Shown: one piece after another, positions 30,304 to 39,887 of the stretch
How positions within the stretch are numbered: position 1 is the first letter of the stretch
Layout of the letters: every line of letters begins with the position of its first letter
Origin: an uncultured Flavobacteriales bacterium
GTDB lineage: Bacteria; Bacteroidota; Bacteroidia; Flavobacteriales_D; Crocinitomicaceae
DNA: 39,887 nt
Assembly (NCBI GenBank): GCA_903945495.1
Contig: CAJAVU010000038.1
Location: 1 to 39,887, forward strand
Reading direction: 5' to 3'
Notes under the pieces: generated by a model
What the model was told of the DNA's origin: nothing
What the model saw: only the letters and a program-made list of their open reading frames with translations
Database searches by the model: none
Translations under genes and position numbers: made by a program

Positions 30304-30852
30304 TTATCCTTCAAGTAGAACCGTTACCCAAGGGTCTTCTTTTGTTTCACGAATCATTTTACCTGATCGTTTGTAGAAGCGGTAGAAAGCTTCTTCTCCA
30401 TTTGCTGCATAGAAAATCTCGACTTTAGGAACCCCATTCGGATATGTAATCCCTTTGCTGATGAGTCGCTCTGTTTGATCATAGAGGAGTACAACAATGG
30501 TTTTCCAACGTTTAAATTTTCGTTCACGTTCTTTCACAACCCAGCGTCCAGTTTTGTATCCATTGACATACAAGCCTTCTTCTTTTACTGTAATTGGATA
30601 GTTTAGATAAGTATATAATTTGGCCGCACCGTTCAAGGTATCGTTGATGTATTTTGCTTCAAGTGCAATACGCTCTTGTTGATCGCGAAAAATCCAGTTA
30701 CCGTTTCGAATCCCATTTTCATTCGATTCACCAATTTCGTATGGATTCCAGTTTAAATCGTATAGAACCCACGAATAATGAACGCCTTTTATCGTTGTAT
30801 CACGCTGTGAAAAAGTTAAAAATGGTAGAAAAAGAACTAGTATGAATTTCAC
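30304..30852 (-). CDS. Exported protein with MORN-type repeats
   Basis: 182 residues from a GTG start at 30852 (GTG AAA TTC...). Residues 1-15 form a short signal peptide (MKFILVLFLPFLTFSQ). The middle carries MORN_2-like units of the form NGxxxGxW...: ENGIRNGNWIFRDQQERIAL, DTLNGAAKLYTYLNY and VNGYKTGRWVVKE, then PNGVPKVEIFYAANGEEAFY. Such repeats build extended beta sheets; in Bacteroidota many exported proteins of this kind have no known function. It stands alone between two terminators and has its own -7 element. Confidence 0.75.
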   Translation of the reverse strand: MKFILVLFLPFLTFSQRDTTIKGVHYSWVLYDLNWNPYEIGESNENGIRNGNWIFRDQQERIALEAKYINDTLNGAAKLYTYLNYPITVKEEGLYVNGYKTGRWVVKERERKFKRWKTIVVLLYDQTERLISKGITYPNGVPKVEIFYAANGEEAFYRFYKRSGKMIRETKEDPWVTVLLEG

Positions 30853-30947: not shown

Positions 30948-32315
30948 CTATTCAGCAATCACCACTGAATAACTCGTTGCTTGAGCACCCGATTTTATGT
31001 GCACAAAATAAGTTCCATTGTACAAAGTAGCAACATTGAAAAAAGCAATTGTACTTCCTTTTTGAATTGTTTGCGTCTGAATCACTTTACCATTTGCATC
31101 TGTTAAGTCGATTACGATTTCATTCGTCGTTAAACCATTTGTTTGAACCATGATAATATCAGCCGAAGGATTTGGGAATACCTTGAAATCAATTTTTTTC
31201 GTTTCGTCAATTCCAGCAGTTGATGTGTATGTTGAGACAGTTTCTGTTATACTCGTAACTTTACCAGCCGATTTCACACCATAAAAGGTTGGACCAACGG
31301 CATAAGGATATGCCGAATTATGATTGGCATCAACCGTTGCAAAGTAACAATAGATTCCTGCTGGATATTCCGGTGTTACGCAAAAACGCCCATTGTGAGC
31401 ATCTAAATAGTCTTCTTGGCCAGCATGTGTAACAAATTCATAATCTTCACGGAAATAACCCAACGGATACGTTGTACTAACAGCTGGACCATCAGCTACA
31501 TCTGTTCCATCAGCCCAAACCGTGCGCGTTGTAATGTTTCTTAATTGATAACCAGATTTGATGCGTACAATTCCTCCTGTTCCATCAGCATTAGCATATC
31601 CATATGCTCCGTAAATTGGAAAACCATCATAAGCAAATCCTATCAATGGAGAGTGTTCTGAAGGATTTATGGCATATAAACCATCAGCGGCGTATAAATC
31701 ACAAATGGTTGAAATGATAGTTAAATCTAAATTGAAGGCACTAGGATTTTGATGGTGGTGATAATTCCCCATTGCTGGATGGCCCTTAGAACAATCAAAG
31801 CCCAGTTTTTCAGCAGGAACAGCATCTCGATTCCAAGATTGAGACCCTCCTGGACCACCAGGACAAGGCGACATTCCGGGTAAACCACCGCATAAAGAAT
31901 TAGTAGTTGTATTCCATGCAACGCCGTCACGGTAATCAAATAAGGCTACTCCGTTGATGAAAACACCAATGTTTGCTCCTGTAGTGCTTGTTGGCGTTCC
32001 TGTGTTTTGTACTGGATTCAATGGAATTTTAAAAATCGCATTTTGATCGGTTGCTAATGAAGGATTGCCATCAAGGAATGGACCCGTTGGATATGCTGGA
32101 ATTCCATTCGTAGAAACATAGACCCAACTGCTAGAATATTGAACGGTTTGTACATTCGCTTCTACTGCATCTTGAATAGCTGTTGAATTTCCAGAAACGT
32201 AATGACTCCCATTCAGTCCCGTTGTATTTTGCAACCAAGAAGTAATTGCTGGATTTGTTTGAGCAAAAGAAAAAGGCGTAATTCCCAAGCTCAAGGCTAT
32301 AAATAGTTTTCTCAT
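30948..32315 (-). CDS. Secreted YHYH-domain protein with T9SS sorting tail
   Basis: 455 residues. Residues 1-18 are a signal peptide (MRKLFIALSLGITPFSFAQ). The YHYH domain is marked by PAMGNYHHHQNPSAF (Tyr185 and His186-188) and by LIGFAYDGFPIYGAYGY and GRFCVTPEYPAGIYCYFATV. The histidine cluster suggests metal binding, but no function is established for the domain. The last ~80 residues are a type A T9SS sorting domain (KVFPNPSADIIMV... LYNGTYFVHIKSG), so it should be exported to the cell surface. It lies 58 bases downstream of the MauG-like peroxidase gene and has its own copy of the motif found in front of the sigma gene, so it can be transcribed both with the operon and from its own promoter. 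Confidence 0.9.
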   Translation of the reverse strand: MRKLFIALSLGITPFSFAQTNPAITSWLQNTTGLNGSHYVSGNSTAIQDAVEANVQTVQYSSSWVYVSTNGIPAYPTGPFLDGNPSLATDQNAIFKIPLNPVQNTGTPTSTTGANIGVFINGVALFDYRDGVAWNTTTNSLCGGLPGMSPCPGGPGGSQSWNRDAVPAEKLGFDCSKGHPAMGNYHHHQNPSAFNLDLTIISTICDLYAADGLYAINPSEHSPLIGFAYDGFPIYGAYGYANADGTGGIVRIKSGYQLRNITTRTVWADGTDVADGPAVSTTYPLGYFREDYEFVTHAGQEDYLDAHNGRFCVTPEYPAGIYCYFATVDANHNSAYPYAVGPTFYGVKSAGKVTSITETVSTYTSTAGIDETKKIDFKVFPNPSADIIMVQTNGLTTNEIVIDLTDANGKVIQTQTIQKGSTIAFFNVATLYNGTYFVHIKSGAQATSYSVVIAE

Positions 32316-32332
32316 AGTTTATCGATTTATTA

Positions 32333-32364
32333 GTTAGTTGTTCTTTAGAAAAATAACTTGCGCT
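32333..32364 (-). promoter_or_regulatory. Candidate ECF-sigma promoter before the YHYH gene
   Basis: On the minus strand AGCGCAAGTT (32364-32355), 17 bases, then CTAAC (32337-32333), ending 17 bases before the ATG. The same ends with the same spacing occur before the sigma gene (35482-35451); 22 of the 32 bases are identical. Assignment to the sigma factor encoded at 34859-35434 is inferred from this match. Confidence 0.6.
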
Positions 32365-32373
32365 CCAATTAAA

Positions 32374-33402
32374 TTATTTCGGGTAAGAATAACGCGGATT
32401 ATATAAAAAAGCTTTGTCTGTAAGGGTTAAGAGAAATGATAAAAGATCTTTTTTCTCAGTATCACTGAAGTGAAAAGGTTTTAATGGCTTTGATAAATAG
32501 CTAACCGAAGGATCAATTCCATCACTGTAATAATTGATGACATCTTTCAATTTTTTGAAACGCCCGTCATGCATATAAGGGAATGTGAATTCACTATTGC
32601 GCAAGGTTGGGATTTTAAACAACATTGAATCAGATGGATTGTGCGTTATGCCATATCGTCCAACGTCTTTCAATAAACTGTCCATTTTTAATCCATTGCT
32701 AGCGAATGTAGGACTCGTAAACAATGGTTCTTTGTGACAAACAGCACAATGTTCTCGAAAGAGTTTTAAACCATTTTTTTCTTGTTCACTGAATTGAACG
32801 CCTTTTTCCTTACGCATCATTTTGTCGTATTTCGAATCAGCAGAAACTAAGGAAACAGTATATAATGTCAAAGCCTTCATTAAGGTTGAAGAGGTAATTT
32901 TATCTGAACCAAATGCTTTATTAAATAAAGCTGGATAAACCGAAGACGCATTCAATTTTTTAAGTACATTTTCCAGTTTTTCATCCATTTCTGCTGGATG
33001 TTGTATCGGATTGATTCCTTGAACTTCCAAATGATTCACACCACCATCCCAATGAAAACTTGAATTCCAAGCAAGATTGATTAATACGGGTGAATTTCGG
33101 GTTCCTTTTCTTCCTTCAATTCCGTGACTAATAGTGTGATCAACATGTGTGAATCCCGTGTATTGTAAATGACATGAAGCGCAGGAAATAGTGCTATCTT
33201 TCGAAAGAATTGGGTCGTAAAACAATTTCCGTCCGAGCTGAAATCCTTCTTCTGTCAATGGATTGTTTTTGAATGAATAAACAGGGTTTGGCCATTTCTT
33301 TGGAACAGAAAATTCAATGATCGTTGGTTCAGTTTTGAATTTGAATGAAATCAAAACCAGCACACAACTGTAAAATGCGATGAAAAGTACTCTGTTTTTC
33401 AT
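32374..33402 (-). CDS. Diheme cytochrome c peroxidase, MauG/MbnH-like
   Basis: 342 residues. An N-terminal hydrophobic segment (about 5-20) directs export. Two haem-binding motifs are present: CASCH at Cys74-His78 and CAVCH at Cys219-His223. The MauG/CcpA core appears as GRKLFYDPILSKD, RNSPVLINLAWNSSFHWDGG and FKIPTLRNSEFTFPYMHDGR. Members either reduce H2O2 or, like MauG and MbnH, oxidise a tryptophan in a partner protein through a high-valent haem state. Its immediate upstream neighbour, with no bases between, is an MbnP-family gene, the known partner of MbnH, so the second role is favoured. Typical bacterial peroxidases are of similar length, so size does not decide. Confidence 0.9.
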   Translation of the reverse strand: MKNRVLFIAFYSCVLVLISFKFKTEPTIIEFSVPKKWPNPVYSFKNNPLTEEGFQLGRKLFYDPILSKDSTISCASCHLQYTGFTHVDHTISHGIEGRKGTRNSPVLINLAWNSSFHWDGGVNHLEVQGINPIQHPAEMDEKLENVLKKLNASSVYPALFNKAFGSDKITSSTLMKALTLYTVSLVSADSKYDKMMRKEKGVQFSEQEKNGLKLFREHCAVCHKEPLFTSPTFASNGLKMDSLLKDVGRYGITHNPSDSMLFKIPTLRNSEFTFPYMHDGRFKKLKDVINYYSDGIDPSVSYLSKPLKPFHFSDTEKKDLLSFLLTLTDKAFLYNPRYSYPK

Positions 33403-34071
33403 TCAATCAATCTTAAAACATGTTGCAAGAAAATTGGATAATTCAGCGGCTTTTGGACCAGGAATCATCACATTGTTGCATTTTTCGATTTCCAAAGAAG
33501 ATATAAACTCACTCAAATCTAACTTTACTATTTTTTCTGATTTTTCACAGCTAAATGTAAGCGTTTGAAGGGTTGGATAGGGCGGAAGATAACCACCTAA
33601 ATGATATTCGAATGGAATTTTCACGCCATTCGTTTTGGTAAAAGTTCCTTCAACTTTTGAATTGATGTATCCACTGTTCCACGTCCAATACATGCCTTTA
33701 ATTGGATCAAGATCTCCATCCAATATCCCTGCAACATTGGTCGAACTATCTATTCCAAGGTTAAAACGAACAGAATCAACAACTGAAATTGGAAAAGAAA
33801 GCTGTAAACTTTCAGGATTTTCTAAATCAATTAAAAAAGCTCCTTTCTGTTCTGAAACTAGTTTGTTGTTTGAATAAAAGGTAAAATTGGACACATAAAA
33901 ACGACAGGTTGTTATTTCCATTTTACTCGAGTCTGATAACGAATAAATCGTATTTAATTCGATGTATTCATTCGAAATGCTTGACTGAAATGTAAAGTTT
34001 ATGGATGTAGTTTGCCCGTATCCAGTATTTAGGATGAAGCAAAGCACAAAACCATATACTATTTTATCCAT
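33403..34071 (-). CDS. MbnP-family periplasmic protein
   Basis: 222 residues. Signal peptide at about 1-19 (MDKIVYGFVLCFILNTGYGQ). The MbnP-type features are INFTFQSSISNEYIELNT at the start, KMEITTCRFYVSNFTFYSNN, and the Trp-bearing segment MYWTWNSGYINSKVEGTF, followed by FEYHLGGY. In methanotrophs MbnP binds copper after its partner MbnH converts a tryptophan to kynurenine. Here the MbnH-like gene starts at the base after the stop. The identification rests on these motifs and on the gene pair; copper binding is inferred. It shares one base with the stop of the sensor gene upstream. Confidence 0.82.
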   Translation of the reverse strand: MDKIVYGFVLCFILNTGYGQTTSINFTFQSSISNEYIELNTIYSLSDSSKMEITTCRFYVSNFTFYSNNKLVSEQKGAFLIDLENPESLQLSFPISVVDSVRFNLGIDSSTNVAGILDGDLDPIKGMYWTWNSGYINSKVEGTFTKTNGVKIPFEYHLGGYLPPYPTLQTLTFSCEKSEKIVKLDLSEFISSLEIEKCNNVMIPGPKAAELSNFLATCFKID

Positions 34072-34538
34072 TATTTTCTTGGAGGAGGAGGGCCTTCAGG
34101 ACCGTGTCTGCTAAATACGTTATGGATTATTTCATCCAATAATTTCAGCTGTTCTGGGGTGCACAATTCACTGATCGCTTTGAAATGGTCGAAAGTCATT
34201 TGTTCTGTCTCACGCTGATTTTCTACAATCTGATCGATAAGTTGAGTAATATCACTAGTATCTTTATCGCTATTATTGAAAAAGCGGTACAATCGTTCAT
34301 GCAAATCTCTTCCCTTGCTAATGAGCGAATCTTTTGTTTTGAAATGTTGATCTTGAAGCTGAATTATTTTAGCGCGATTTTCACCCTTCACACCTAATTT
34401 TTCCACTAAATCTAATCTGCCAGGATGCGGTGGTGGACCCATCTGACGATTAAACGTCAACCAAAGGAATACTAGTGTTGTAACGTTAATAATAACGAGG
34501 ATACTAATTACAATTTTATAAAAACGTGTTGATTTCAT
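34071..34538 (-). CDS. Periplasmic heavy-metal sensor-like protein (CnrX/Spy type)
   Basis: 155 residues. One membrane anchor (about 8-30), then a helical, His- and Met-containing periplasmic domain. A proline-rich stretch (MGPPPHPGR) leads into the helices; the second half has MTFDHFKAISELCTPEQLKL and ends RHGPEGPPPPRK. The 'TPEQ' helix and the helical-hairpin layout are those of the CnrX/ZraP/Spy group, where His, Met and Glu side chains sense metals such as Ni, Co or Zn. It overlaps the anti-sigma-like gene by 4 bases and the MbnP gene by 1. By analogy with CnrX it would report periplasmic metal to the anti-sigma factor. Confidence 0.75.
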   Translation of the reverse strand: MKSTRFYKIVISILVIINVTTLVFLWLTFNRQMGPPPHPGRLDLVEKLGVKGENRAKIIQLQDQHFKTKDSLISKGRDLHERLYRFFNNSDKDTSDITQLIDQIVENQRETEQMTFDHFKAISELCTPEQLKLLDEIIHNVFSRHGPEGPPPPRK

Positions 34539-34822
34539 AAGTCTTGTTCTATATATGAAAAATAGTCTGAGTAGATCGTGGTTTCTTGTTGTTTCTTAGT
34601 TTTTTTTATGGTTCTGACCGCCAACACATTTACAGATATTAACAAAGCAATGCTTGCAGCAGCTAACCAAACTGCGCTTAATGGAATCGTTTTTTCAAAA
34701 ACGGTAATTTCGGACGGAATGTTTTTTAAACGACTTTTCAATTGTTCAGACAAAGCTACAGGACGCAACCCTTCGGTACTTTCCAATGTAGTATTCATCC
34801 AATTGTCTTTTTTTGTTTCCAT
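34535..34822 (-). CDS. One-TM protein, probable anti-sigma factor (CnrY-like)
   Basis: 95 residues. A cytoplasmic N-terminal part of about 45 residues (with LSEQLKSRLKNIPSEI) is followed by one membrane helix (about 48-68, LSAVWLAAASIALLISVNVL) and a short tail of about 25 residues. This is the size and topology of CnrY-type anti-sigma factors, which hold the sigma factor at the membrane. No zinc-binding HxxxCxxC motif is present. It lies 36 bases after the ECF sigma gene and overlaps the sensor gene by 4 bases. The call is based on topology and position, not on sequence motifs. Confidence 0.65.
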   Translation of the reverse strand: METKKDNWMNTTLESTEGLRPVALSEQLKSRLKNIPSEITVFEKTIPLSAVWLAAASIALLISVNVLAVRTIKKTKKQQETTIYSDYFSYIEQDL

Positions 34823-34858
34823 ACTCTTTAAGATGATTTATTTGTTTTTTTCTTGCGC

Positions 34859-35434
34859 TTAACGTTCATTTTCATCGTAATAGCGTGCTAATTTTTGTTT
34901 TAAATTTTGTCGAGCCCTGAAAATAAGCGATTCGACGGAGGAAAGTGAAGTTTCTAAAATCACAGCAATTTCTTCGTAGGGAATTCCTTCGAGCTTATGC
35001 ATACTGAAAGCCAATTTTTGATTTTCAGGTAATTGCTCAATTGCCGCGAACAAAATACTTGCACGTTCTTTATTTTCCAATACGATGCCAGGATGCTCAA
35101 GATGTGGTTTTAATAAATTCTCAGCATTGTCATTTTGCTCAATCGAAATCGTAAATCCAAAACGTTTTTTGCGTGATTTTTTACGAAAATGTTCCTTGCA
35201 TTTGTTCACAGCAATGCGATAAATCCACGTAGATAATTTTGAATCTCCTTTGAATTGTTGTATCGATGTGAAAACAGTCGTGAAAATTTCTTGTGTTACA
35301 TCTTCGGCATCTTCCTGATTTTGCAACAGATTGAATGAAAGATTATACACTTTTGAGGAAAAGGTATCAATGAGTTGATTGAAAGCCAATTGACTTCCTT
35401 CTTTCAACGCATTAATTTCTTCTTGACTTTCCAA
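34859..35434 (-). CDS. ECF-family RNA polymerase sigma factor
   Basis: 191 residues. Region 2 (about 15-95) has AFNQLIDTFSSKVYNLSFNL, the DAEDVTQEIFTTVF core and LSTWIYRIAVNKCKEHFRKK; region 4 (about 134-185) has LPENQKLAFSMHKLEGIPYE and SSVESLIFRARQNLKQKL. There is no region 1 or 3, as in all ECF factors. The start must be TTG at 35434: the next in-frame codons upstream contain no ATG or GTG before a TGA at 35461-35459, and no Met lies downstream before region 2. First gene of the operon anti-sigma / sensor / MbnP / MbnH, and preceded by the motif it shares with the YHYH gene. Confidence 0.93.
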   Translation of the reverse strand: MESQEEINALKEGSQLAFNQLIDTFSSKVYNLSFNLLQNQEDAEDVTQEIFTTVFTSIQQFKGDSKLSTWIYRIAVNKCKEHFRKKSRKKRFGFTISIEQNDNAENLLKPHLEHPGIVLENKERASILFAAIEQLPENQKLAFSMHKLEGIPYEEIAVILETSLSSVESLIFRARQNLKQKLARYYDENER

Positions 35435-35450
35435 ATTTCGAACTTTGTTC

Positions 35451-35482
35451 GTTAGATGTCATGAAGATAAGAAACTTGCGCT
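35451..35482 (-). promoter_or_regulatory. Candidate autoregulated ECF-sigma promoter before the sigma gene
   Basis: On the minus strand AGCGCAAGTT (35482-35473), 17 bases, then CTAAC (35455-35451), ending 16 bases before the TTG start. Same ends and spacing as the element at 32364-32333. ECF sigma factors often activate their own operon, so this pair is the best candidate for their recognition site. Confidence 0.6.
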
Positions 35483-39016: not shown

Positions 39017-39887
39017 CTATTCTTTTTCTGTTGGATTTTCTGAACTTGTATTTTCTACATCACTTCCAGAAATTGGTGTGCCATCCTCTGCCGTTAATTG
39101 TAAATCAGACCAGTCTAATTCAGATTCCTCAGCATATGCATCGAAATATGGTTCCTCAAATGATTTTGTTGTCAATCTTCTTTCCAAGGACAATAATAAA
39201 CATGGAAGTAAAATTAAATTGGTAAACAAGGCAACAAAATAAGTAATTGCTGACAAATAACCCAGCGCTTGAGTACCACCGAAATCAGAGAAAATGAATA
39301 CAATAAAGCCGAAGAATAGAATTACAGAAGTATAAATGATACTTAAACCAGTTTCACGAATTGACATTGCAACGCAATCTTTCAAATCCCATTTTTTCTG
39401 TTTTAATTCTTGTCGGTATTTCGCTAAGAAGTGAATTGTATTATCAACTGTAATACCAAGAGCAATTGAGAAGATTAGTAAAGTTGACGGTTTCAATGGA
39501 ATATTAAACCAACCCATAATCCCCGCGGTCACAATCATTGGAATGATATTCGGAATCATTGATACAACCACCATTCTGAAAGAAGAGAATAAGAAACTCA
39601 TCAAAATGGCAATCGAAATAATGGCAAAAACGATACTTGATAGTAAGTTGTTTACTAAGTATTGCGTTCCTTCCGAGGCAACTACCGAAGTTCCAGTTAA
39701 TGTAACATCATAATACTCATTATCAATTGCTTTTCGCAAATTTTCAACAAACTTCGGTTTTGAGTAATATGTCTTAATTAACTCAGTATCAGTGTCAAAT
39801 TTGTACTGTAAATCAGAATTTCCGTTTGAAATTAAAGCAGTTACACCATTATAAATGTTTGAATAATTTTCAAACAACGAATCGATG
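39017..39887 (-). CDS. RND/MMPL-family transporter, C-terminal part (5' end outside window)
   Basis: The frame is open to the right edge; about 290 residues are seen. A periplasmic segment is followed by five or six membrane helices (starting LLSSIVFAIISIAILMSFLF) with the family pattern SSFRMVVVSMIPNIIPMIVT, GITVDNTIHFLAKYRQELKQ and TSVILFFGFIVFIFSDFGGT; Asp in GITVDNTIH is the position used for proton relay in this family. The C-terminus is an acidic tail of about 50 residues. Substrate unknown; such proteins export lipids, sterol-like compounds or drugs. A TTG at 39877 in frame is only an internal codon. Thirty bases separate it from rfbA. Confidence 0.88.
   Translation of the reverse strand, partial: IDSLFENYSNIYNGVTALISNGNSDLQYKFDTDTELIKTYYSKPKFVENLRKAIDNEYYDVTLTGTSVVASEGTQYLVNNLLSSIVFAIISIAILMSFLFSSFRMVVVSMIPNIIPMIVTAGIMGWFNIPLKPSTLLIFSIALGITVDNTIHFLAKYRQELKQKKWDLKDCVAMSIRETGLSIIYTSVILFFGFIVFIFSDFGGTQALGYLSAITYFVALFTNLILLPCLLLSLERRLTTKSFEEPYFDAYAEESELDWSDLQLTAEDGTPISGSDVENTSSENPTEKE

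Follow-up and report, generated by a model that had tools for sequence, protein, structure and literature searches.

In CnrYXH of Cupriavidus metallidurans, three small genes specify an extracytoplasmic function (ECF) sigma factor, a one-span anti-sigma factor and the membrane-anchored sensor CnrX, which is metal-induced and senses Ni/Co, its metal site being made of His, Glu and Met residues. In the characterised MbnP–MbnH family, represented by the adjacent pair of Methylosinus trichosporium, MbnH oxidises a tryptophan of MbnP to kynurenine. Here we compare with these systems a locus at positions 30,948-35,482 of contig CAJAVU010000038.1 from an uncultured Flavobacteriales bacterium (Crocinitomicaceae; GCA_903945495.1), whose entire 39,887 nt were analysed and are called the window below. 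The locus encodes an ECF sigma factor (SIG), a putative anti-sigma factor (ANTI), a putative periplasmic sensor (SENS), an MbnP-family protein, an MbnH/MauG-like enzyme (MbnH below) and a YHYH-domain protein. Its conserved gene content and a shared promoter-like element lead us to posit that it is, on balance, the central part of a self-regulating ECF-sigma regulon, one that would serve at the cell envelope to handle a metal, most likely copper. The predicted regulon very probably has five units: SIG, ANTI through MbnH, YHYH, a distant CotH gene and a distant gene for a TonB-dependent receptor.

The likeness to CnrYXH lies in the set of three small genes, with a one-span anti-sigma candidate and a membrane-anchored sensor whose predicted fold matches CnrX first. 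In contrast to that system, the order here is SIG-ANTI-SENS, ANTI has no CnrY match, the conserved sensor residues are H65 and C126, and the outputs are MbnP, MbnH, YHYH, CotH and the receptor. The 11 genes scanned alongside include none recognised as heavy-metal efflux, hence none of the linked Ni/Co efflux looked for as a mark of a CnrYXH-type system. With the M. trichosporium pair the locus shares adjacency, the WxW motif and, as nearest solved structures, 7l6g and 6e1c, which we take to be the structure of MbnH. The pair here differs in scoring far under the cut-offs of TIGR04052 and TIGR04039, in being coupled to YHYH and CotH, and in standing beside a CnrX-type rather than a FecIRA-type (MbnIRT) switch; no methanobactin genes were recognised among its neighbours, no genome-wide search for them having been made. 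Like the FecIRA-like MbnI/MbnR/MbnT, the locus ties an ECF sigma factor and a TonB-dependent receptor to MbnP and MbnH. There, according to an excerpt of PMC3621798, the receptor is thought to signal via a FecR-like protein, whereas here the sensor is a separate CnrX-fold protein and the receptor a target elsewhere in the genome. The methanotroph systems MopE/SACCP and CorA/CorB likewise join a di-haem partner enzyme to a copper protein located on the cell surface or outside the cell, and MopE is described with a kynurenine; the partner proteins of these systems are not markedly MbnP-like in sequence (PMC3621798, in part), and the surface proteins here are instead YHYH and CotH, exported by the type IX secretion system (T9SS). 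The same excerpt describes the MbnP–MbnH pair as conserved well outside the bacteria that make methanobactin and, in some cases, as having FecIRA-like genes nearby. The parts of the locus are of known kinds; we found no description of their combination or of the promoter, and none of the regulon or of these families joined, in searches of open-licence literature, which given that scope is weak evidence of absence.

Gene layout and a shared promoter-like element

The six minus-strand genes lie as the preliminary description had it: calls of open reading frames (ORFs) bear out their order, with ANTI overlapping SENS by 4 bases, SENS overlapping MbnP by 1 base, and MbnP abutting MbnH. Gaps of 36 bases between SIG and ANTI and 58 bases between MbnH and YHYH each contain one promoter-like element, and the upstream edge of a third, before SIG, coincides with the right border (35482) that had been drawn for the locus. 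Because one predicted promoter precedes SIG, the ANTI operon and YHYH, the locus probably forms three transcription units (SIG; ANTI-SENS-MbnP-MbnH; YHYH), and a single six-gene operon is unlikely. The joint module proposed earlier is partly supported, by co-occurrence and by promoter evidence from sequence, though probably not as one operon.

Table. Genes and promoter-like elements of the locus, in window coordinates
Feature	Position	Strand	Basis
SIG: ECF sigma factor, 191 aa, TTG start	34859..35434	-	Sigma70_r2 60 bits, r4_2 59 bits (Pfam)
ANTI: putative anti-sigma factor, 95 aa	34535..34822	-	position and one hydrophobic stretch; conserved between SIG and SENS
SENS: putative membrane-anchored periplasmic sensor, 155 aa	34071..34538	-	CnrX/Spy/CpxP-like predicted fold
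MbnP-family protein, 222 aa, WxW (W129, W131) and H157	33403..34071	-	Pfam MbnP; predicted fold
MbnH/MauG-like di-haem enzyme, 342 aa, two CxxCH	32374..33402	-	CCP_MauG; profile best PDB match 6e1c
YHYH-domain protein, 455 aa, T9SS sorting tail	30948..32315	-	PF14240 195 bits and Por_Secre_tail 47 bits
Promoter-like element P1, GCGCAAG-N16-CATCTAA, upstream of SIG	35452..35481	-	motif search
Promoter-like element P2, GCGCAAG-N16-CATCTTA, between SIG and ANTI	34829..34858	-	motif search
Promoter-like element P3, GCGCAAG-N16-CAACTAA, upstream of YHYH	32334..32363	-	motif search

The spellings with N19 to CTAA and N16 to CATCTAA denote one element. The window holds three copies of GCGCAAG-N19-CT, one each before SIG, ANTI and YHYH, against a shuffle mean of 0.11, and three copies arose in 0 of 100 shuffles. 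Across the 3.64 Mb genome AGCGCAAG-N19-CTWA has four exact matches, three in the cassette and one before the distant CotH gene, compared with one for the control pattern. Cutting the -35 part by two bases gives 9 matches against 20 for the control, so this short form alone is unspecific. With at most one mismatch, CGCAAG-N16-CATCWRA is found 18 times (control 7): five matches stand before SIG, ANTI, YHYH, CotH and the receptor. The remaining 13 all fall within ORFs of at least 100 residues and were discounted as promoters, as was a 2-mismatch match at C21:125399, also within an ORF. At three mismatches the 31 matches are fewer than in the control (33+23), and four of the 27 contexts examined are intergenic: CotH, the receptor (locus L237), L225 and L220. 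The same five targets reappear in genomes G008 and G002, among 19 and 22 matches (control 6 each).

The distant CotH gene encodes 758 residues with CotH, lamin-tail (LTD) and T9SS parts, its element lying at C1:3217, 24 bases before the gene. The receptor, 783 aa, has a CarbopepD_reg domain and a Plug just under cut-off; its element stands 33 bases before the ORF, and relatives at 73% identity or more are present in 14 of 23 same-genus genomes, its own included.

Because the element was spotted by eye beforehand, held-out tests weigh more. We scored it with a matrix built from four sites, which permits non-canonical spacings at a penalty, and took as threshold the top 1% of 290 upstream regions of other ORFs at the same loci; the window was left out of the held-out counts. 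Among the closer same-genus loci (L053-L073) the element passes before SIG in 12/20, ANTI in 13/20 and YHYH in 12/16; in the 13 loci L074-L086, which are more distant and include three from the genus, it passes in 0/12, 2/12 and 2/6, respectively. CotH orthologues pass in 16 of 23 tested, 15 of 22 held out and 14 of 17 held out within the genus (L185, with no upstream DNA, was left out), and the passing same-genus sites lie 23-51 bases from the end of the scored region, or 94 bases in L184. Where upstream DNA was available the receptor element passes in 12 of 13 same-genus cases, and in 11 of 12 once the window genome is set aside, L247 failing. At all five units the passing held-out sites have the same spacing. 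A strict two-part pattern, sought in the best 80 of 405 loci of the YHYH scan described below, occurs at 4/39 SIG genes, 10/39 SIG/ANTI gaps and 15/79 YHYH genes against 1/477 background regions; these counts are supportive only, because several of the loci belong to the genus and had entered the earlier tests.

Co-drift is the strongest argument that one sigma factor, this one and not another, would read both the cassette and CotH. In genomes G011, G012 and G014 SIG stands further from that of the window (phmmer E between 7e-39 and 3e-39, where the other same-genus loci with SIG reach 5e-43 or better), and the elements at SIG, ANTI and YHYH read GAGGGA-N15-CGTC (equivalently GAGGG-N16-CGTC). 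The distant CotH genes of the same genomes bear the same altered element, with CGTT in G012. A pattern fitted to the altered sites finds four places each in G011 and G014 and no others; that it finds these four follows from how it was written, but that it finds no more does not. More weakly, GCGCAAG is replaced by TCAAAAG in G005 and G016, before SIG (L067, L071) as well as before CotH (L186, L182). The sigma-driven joint control proposed in the preliminary description thereby gains a shared predicted promoter, although that proposal was incomplete, since at least five promoters, including those of the distant CotH/LTD and receptor genes, would be concerned.

Some further sites were seen in these scans. 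In the window genome, a 3-mismatch site precedes by 68 bases a 277-residue ORF without a Pfam match over cut-off (L225:599-1432), while no ORF was called after the site of L220. Ten further matches were examined in G002 (7 others came without loci); the single intergenic one is followed after 39 bases by a VTC-domain gene (PF09359; L312:698-1462), a possible extra regulon member; of ten in G008 (4 others came without loci), the sole intergenic one, L299, has no called gene.

Conservation of the gene set and its protein families

SENS was searched for in 60 relatives, the window genome included, and matched in 35; the other 34 neighbourhoods were read for gene order by eye. Same-genus loci are colinear as far as their contigs reach in 24 of 24 cases, none contradicting the order. 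The SIG-to-YHYH set is held by 18 of them, YHYH running off the contig end in L060 and L078, and in the remaining six the contig ends before one end of the set (L055, L059, L061, L068, L069, L073). An antisense ORF masks ANTI or SENS in the ORF calling of L058 and L066, the L066 sensor being found by the sensor search, and in L077-L079 the ANTI position is taken by a 90-residue ORF that single-sequence search did not recognise. G015, of the same genus and 85% complete, gave no sensor match. Outside the genus three of ten loci hold the set (L075, L081, L086), the ANTI position having either a small gene that was not recognised or no gene call, and in two (L074, L080) the sensor is linked to MbnP and the contig ends within the set.

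A second view comes from a scan of Bacteroidota contigs with a YHYH alignment, of which the best 80 of 405 relatives were considered, a sample that favours relatives of the window's YHYH and shares several contigs with the sensor search (L087 and L054, for example). These loci include Crocinitomicaceae, Flavobacterium, Chitinophagales, Sphingobacteriales and Saprospiraceae. MbnH lies upstream of YHYH in 67 and MbnP in 65 of the 80; where at least 5.5 kb of upstream DNA is available (n=52), MbnH is found in 47, MbnP with MbnH in 46, SIG in 31, SENS in 29, and all four in 27. The preliminary description had called for a check of co-occurrence across Bacteroidota and had feared neighbours peculiar to one strain; the set recurs in the same-genus loci as well as in the wider scan, and colinearity in 24/24 loci shows that it is not strain-specific. 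Chance neighbourhood is rejected, given this conservation across relatives.

The profile of SIG finds sigma-E (1or7) as its best PDB match and also CnrH (4cxf) at 5.8e-8. ANTI has one hydrophobic stretch in its sequence and a length that presumably fits CnrY-like (class II) anti-sigma factors. A structure of SENS predicted with AF2 from 25 sequences (mean pLDDT 85.4, pTM 0.63) has CnrX chains at ranks 1-3 of a Foldseek search of the PDB (E 0.012 to 0.026, TMt 0.71-0.73), led by 2y3b (E 0.012, TMt 0.72, probability 1.00), with a VirG-like protein at rank 4. The resemblance to the cnrYXH set noted earlier, in the order sigma, one-span protein, sensor, stands on this fold together with the ECF family of SIG and the hydrophobic stretch of ANTI. 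Among 34 sequences of the sensor-search set, H65 is conserved in 33, F119 in 34 and C126 in 34; among 37 from the YHYH scan the counts are 34, 36 and 36. H65 and C126 are likely metal ligands that do not obviously copy the CnrX site. The description of SENS as CnrX-like is upheld by the rank of its predicted fold and less evidently by its residues, one His and one Cys being conserved with no evident His/Glu/Met set. Excerpts of PMC7406223 state that class I anti-sigma factors adjoin only 6% of Bacteroidetes ECF sigma factors, suggest other anti-sigma classes, and assign CnrY to class II.

Doubt had been raised whether profile searches would place the 222-residue protein in MbnP at all; Pfam puts it inside the family (PF20243, 125.4 bits, cut-off 27). 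Apart from the six chains of the MbnP structure 7l6g, nothing in the PDB matches its structure predicted from 13 sequences (mean pLDDT 84.5, pTM 0.79) at E 0.001 or below; by sequence neither the protein, its profile nor two paralogues retrieves an MbnP from the PDB. W129, W131 and H157 are invariant in 62 of 62 YHYH-scan sequences, and at the position of H157 each of the five paralogues in the same genome also has a His. The residue before the first Trp is Tyr in 59 of the 62 cassette-type sequences and otherwise Phe; in the five paralogues it is His (two), Tyr, Phe or Ala, and one paralogue is without the second Trp. Because the surroundings of WxW vary in this way, the copper sites of cassette MbnP and the paralogues may differ in detail.

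MbnH scores 178 bits against CCP_MauG (cut-off 25.6), and its profile has 6e1c, labelled Di-heme enzyme, as best PDB match. Both haem motifs (C74xxCH78, C219xxCH223) are kept in 26 of 26 sequences. Y292, the Tyr after PYMHDG, is present in 68/68 YHYH-scan sequences, aligns with Tyr in 6e1c and Met in peroxidase 1iqc, and presumably corresponds to Tyr294 of MauG. Twelve of 12 cassette MbnH proteins (set A2) match TIGR04039, the best at E 2e-67 and the window's at 1.2e-64. Because the NCBIfam equivalog cut-offs lie above their scores, we class the MbnP–MbnH pairs as Pfam-level members only: the names given earlier stand as Pfam families with fold and profile matches, not as the named equivalogs. 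The window genome has 6 MbnP and 8 MauG-type genes over cut-off, each of the 6 MbnP adjoins a MauG-type gene, and the five other pairs are also under the equivalog cut-offs (10/10 proteins).

Two of these other pairs have neighbourhoods of their own. On contig C49 (L018 8430-13922), where the MbnP bears a T9SS tail, the neighbours of the pair are a further MauG-type gene and genes for a T9SS multicopper oxidase, an HMA protein and a heavy-metal-binding protein. On contig C3 (L019 2973-6489) the pair is followed by a different ECF sigma gene and then a 259-residue protein without a Pfam match. Elsewhere, in L117, MbnH is spread over three ORFs and the MbnP match is weak, perhaps a broken copy or assembly errors.

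YHYH, at its table score against a cut-off of 25, is the sole YHYH match in the window genome and retains invariant or near-invariant His and Trp residues. Its domain and C-terminal Por_Secre_tail agree with the T9SS-exported surface protein proposed before, export being predicted. Excerpts describe YHYH as a predicted metal-dependent hydrolase with a Zn site (PMC7824862) and list it in diatoms (PMC11992049).

Proposed mechanism, metal and alternative readings

We suggest that ANTI, with its one membrane span, would hold SIG until membrane-anchored SENS alters its state as the conserved His and Cys meet metal or another cue, upon which ANTI would free SIG to transcribe its own gene and the four other units. 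MbnH would then oxidise one WxW tryptophan of MbnP, giving a copper site that may include H157. With YHYH and CotH predicted to be exported to the surface by T9SS and the receptor to sit in the outer membrane, the regulon would span surface, outer membrane and periplasm.

Copper is our best guess for the metal, and a reasonably probable one, because of the family and fold of MbnP, the nearest solved relative of MbnH, the invariant WxW and His, and multicopper oxidases in sister cassettes (T9SS-type, in L153, L161 and L166, with an AhpC/TSA protein also in L153). The direction of the response is the least certain step. We lean slightly, and with low confidence, to acquisition or buffering over detoxification, because the predicted regulon includes a TonB-dependent receptor and because the related methanotroph pairs MopE/SACCP and CorA/CorB are copper-repressed (PMC3621798, with PMC3912023 and PMC3423442, all in excerpt). 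Extended to its fullest, this would be phylum-wide copper acquisition in Bacteroidota by a CnrX-fold sensor with His and Cys, a sigma factor, a kynurenine-bearing MbnP with its maturase, a dedicated receptor, YHYH and a CotH-type kinase, an idea that we put forward tentatively. If true, it would give YHYH and CotH/lamin-tail proteins their first biological roles in Bacteroidota and carry kynurenine-copper chemistry, known from methanotrophs, to a whole phylum. The regulon would in any case provide a conserved regulatory home for poorly understood Bacteroidota MbnP–MbnH, YHYH and CotH/lamin-tail families, it bears on how Bacteroidota ECF sigma factors are controlled, and its predicted promoter makes it testable.

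Several observations weigh against a metal-handling regulon under SIG. ANTI has no family over cut-off in Pfam or NCBIfam, and its profile retrieves no CnrY chain from the PDB. SENS scores 23.9 bits against Pfam Metal_resist (PF13801), under the cut-off of 29.2; none of its Foldseek matches to the PDB reaches E 0.001, and by sequence its profile is nearer to a VirG-like protein (2.3e-5) and Spy (3e-4) than to NccX (0.42). MbnP and MbnH fall far short of their NCBIfam equivalogs (TIGR04052, 31.9 bits for a cut-off of 140; TIGR04039, 218.5 for 362.85). Five of the ten sensor loci outside the genus have no recognised MbnP (L076, L082, L083, L084, L085), and 21 of the 52 roomy YHYH loci no linked SIG. 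As to the element, the matrix does not pick up SIG at 8 of the 20 closer and 12 of the 12 more distant loci, the receptor site fails in all four relatives outside the genus, the strict pattern stands at 1 of 22 MbnP genes without linked SIG or SENS, and the two further intergenic 3-mismatch matches of the window genome, L225 and L220, also exceed the score threshold. The G016 receptor (L255) has GCGCACG, unlike the TCAAAAG of its SIG and CotH, and the CotH of G015 retains its site though that genome gave no sensor match. The genomes are, moreover, related, so that counts for an element picked out by eye are not independent.

The sequence affinities of SENS and the lack of an obvious conserved multi-His/Met site would suit a Spy/CpxP-like envelope-stress sensor at the head of the same regulon, MbnP–MbnH and the surface proteins then repairing or protecting the envelope or surface. 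That the three best fold matches are CnrX chains, with the VirG-like protein only fourth, and that the outputs include MbnP and MbnH, plus the multicopper oxidases in sister loci, makes this rather unlikely. Copper detoxification, in which the sensor would bind excess periplasmic copper, as CnrX binds Ni/Co, and the copper would be sequestered or oxidised by the regulon, has more behind it: the CnrX precedent, the sister-cassette oxidases, and His65 and Cys126, which could bind Cu(I). Even so we regard it as possible rather than probable, for a Pfam scan of 11 window genes, those from position 30304 rightwards to the end, recognised no member of a heavy-metal efflux family beside the cassette, the predicted regulon includes a TonB-dependent receptor, and the analogous MopE/SACCP and CorA/CorB genes fall with copper (PMC3621798, excerpt).

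Two further readings concern the substrate and the element. MbnH might act on YHYH or CotH and not only on MbnP, or YHYH might be a zinc hydrolase and the metal zinc, as its conserved His and Trp and the Zn site and hydrolase activity predicted in the excerpt of PMC7824862 would allow. Yet MbnP directly adjoins MbnH, the pairing holds throughout the genome and WxW is invariant in cassette-type MbnP, and we think such a reading improbable. That the shared element serves another sigma factor or regulator is more improbable still. The genome does have at least one other ECF gene, beside the MbnP–MbnH pair on contig C3, and the G015 CotH site persists where no sensor was found; against this, a two-part element with a single spacing precedes SIG itself, and in genomes with a diverged sigma factor the distant CotH element has changed in step with those of the cassette. 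A copper-handling regulon read by SIG is, on balance, the account that we prefer.

Neighbouring genes and cassette variants

CotH lies inside the cassette in L074, L110 and L140 (by Pfam in L074 and L140, by similarity in L110), and upstream of the distant CotH gene are a glutathione-peroxidase gene and gyrB (L171:382-1014). A rhodopsin gene sits between MbnH and YHYH at L123:5107-5838, with genes of similar length there in L106 and L141. At L081:10098-11390 a second YHYH with a T9SS tail precedes the usual one, and several of the 80 loci show two YHYH matches. The gene after YHYH in the window (30304-30852) encodes 182 residues with repeats of the form NGxxxGxW; it has no Pfam match and stays beside YHYH in L053, L055 and L056. 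At the window edge, the incomplete gene 39017-39877, fourth upstream of SIG, is of MMPL/RND type, its full relative in L053 being nearest to HAE3, below cut-off. Genes of MMPL/RND, polyprenyl synthetase and nucleotidyl transferase type, judged by ORF lengths, flank the cassette in many same-genus loci.

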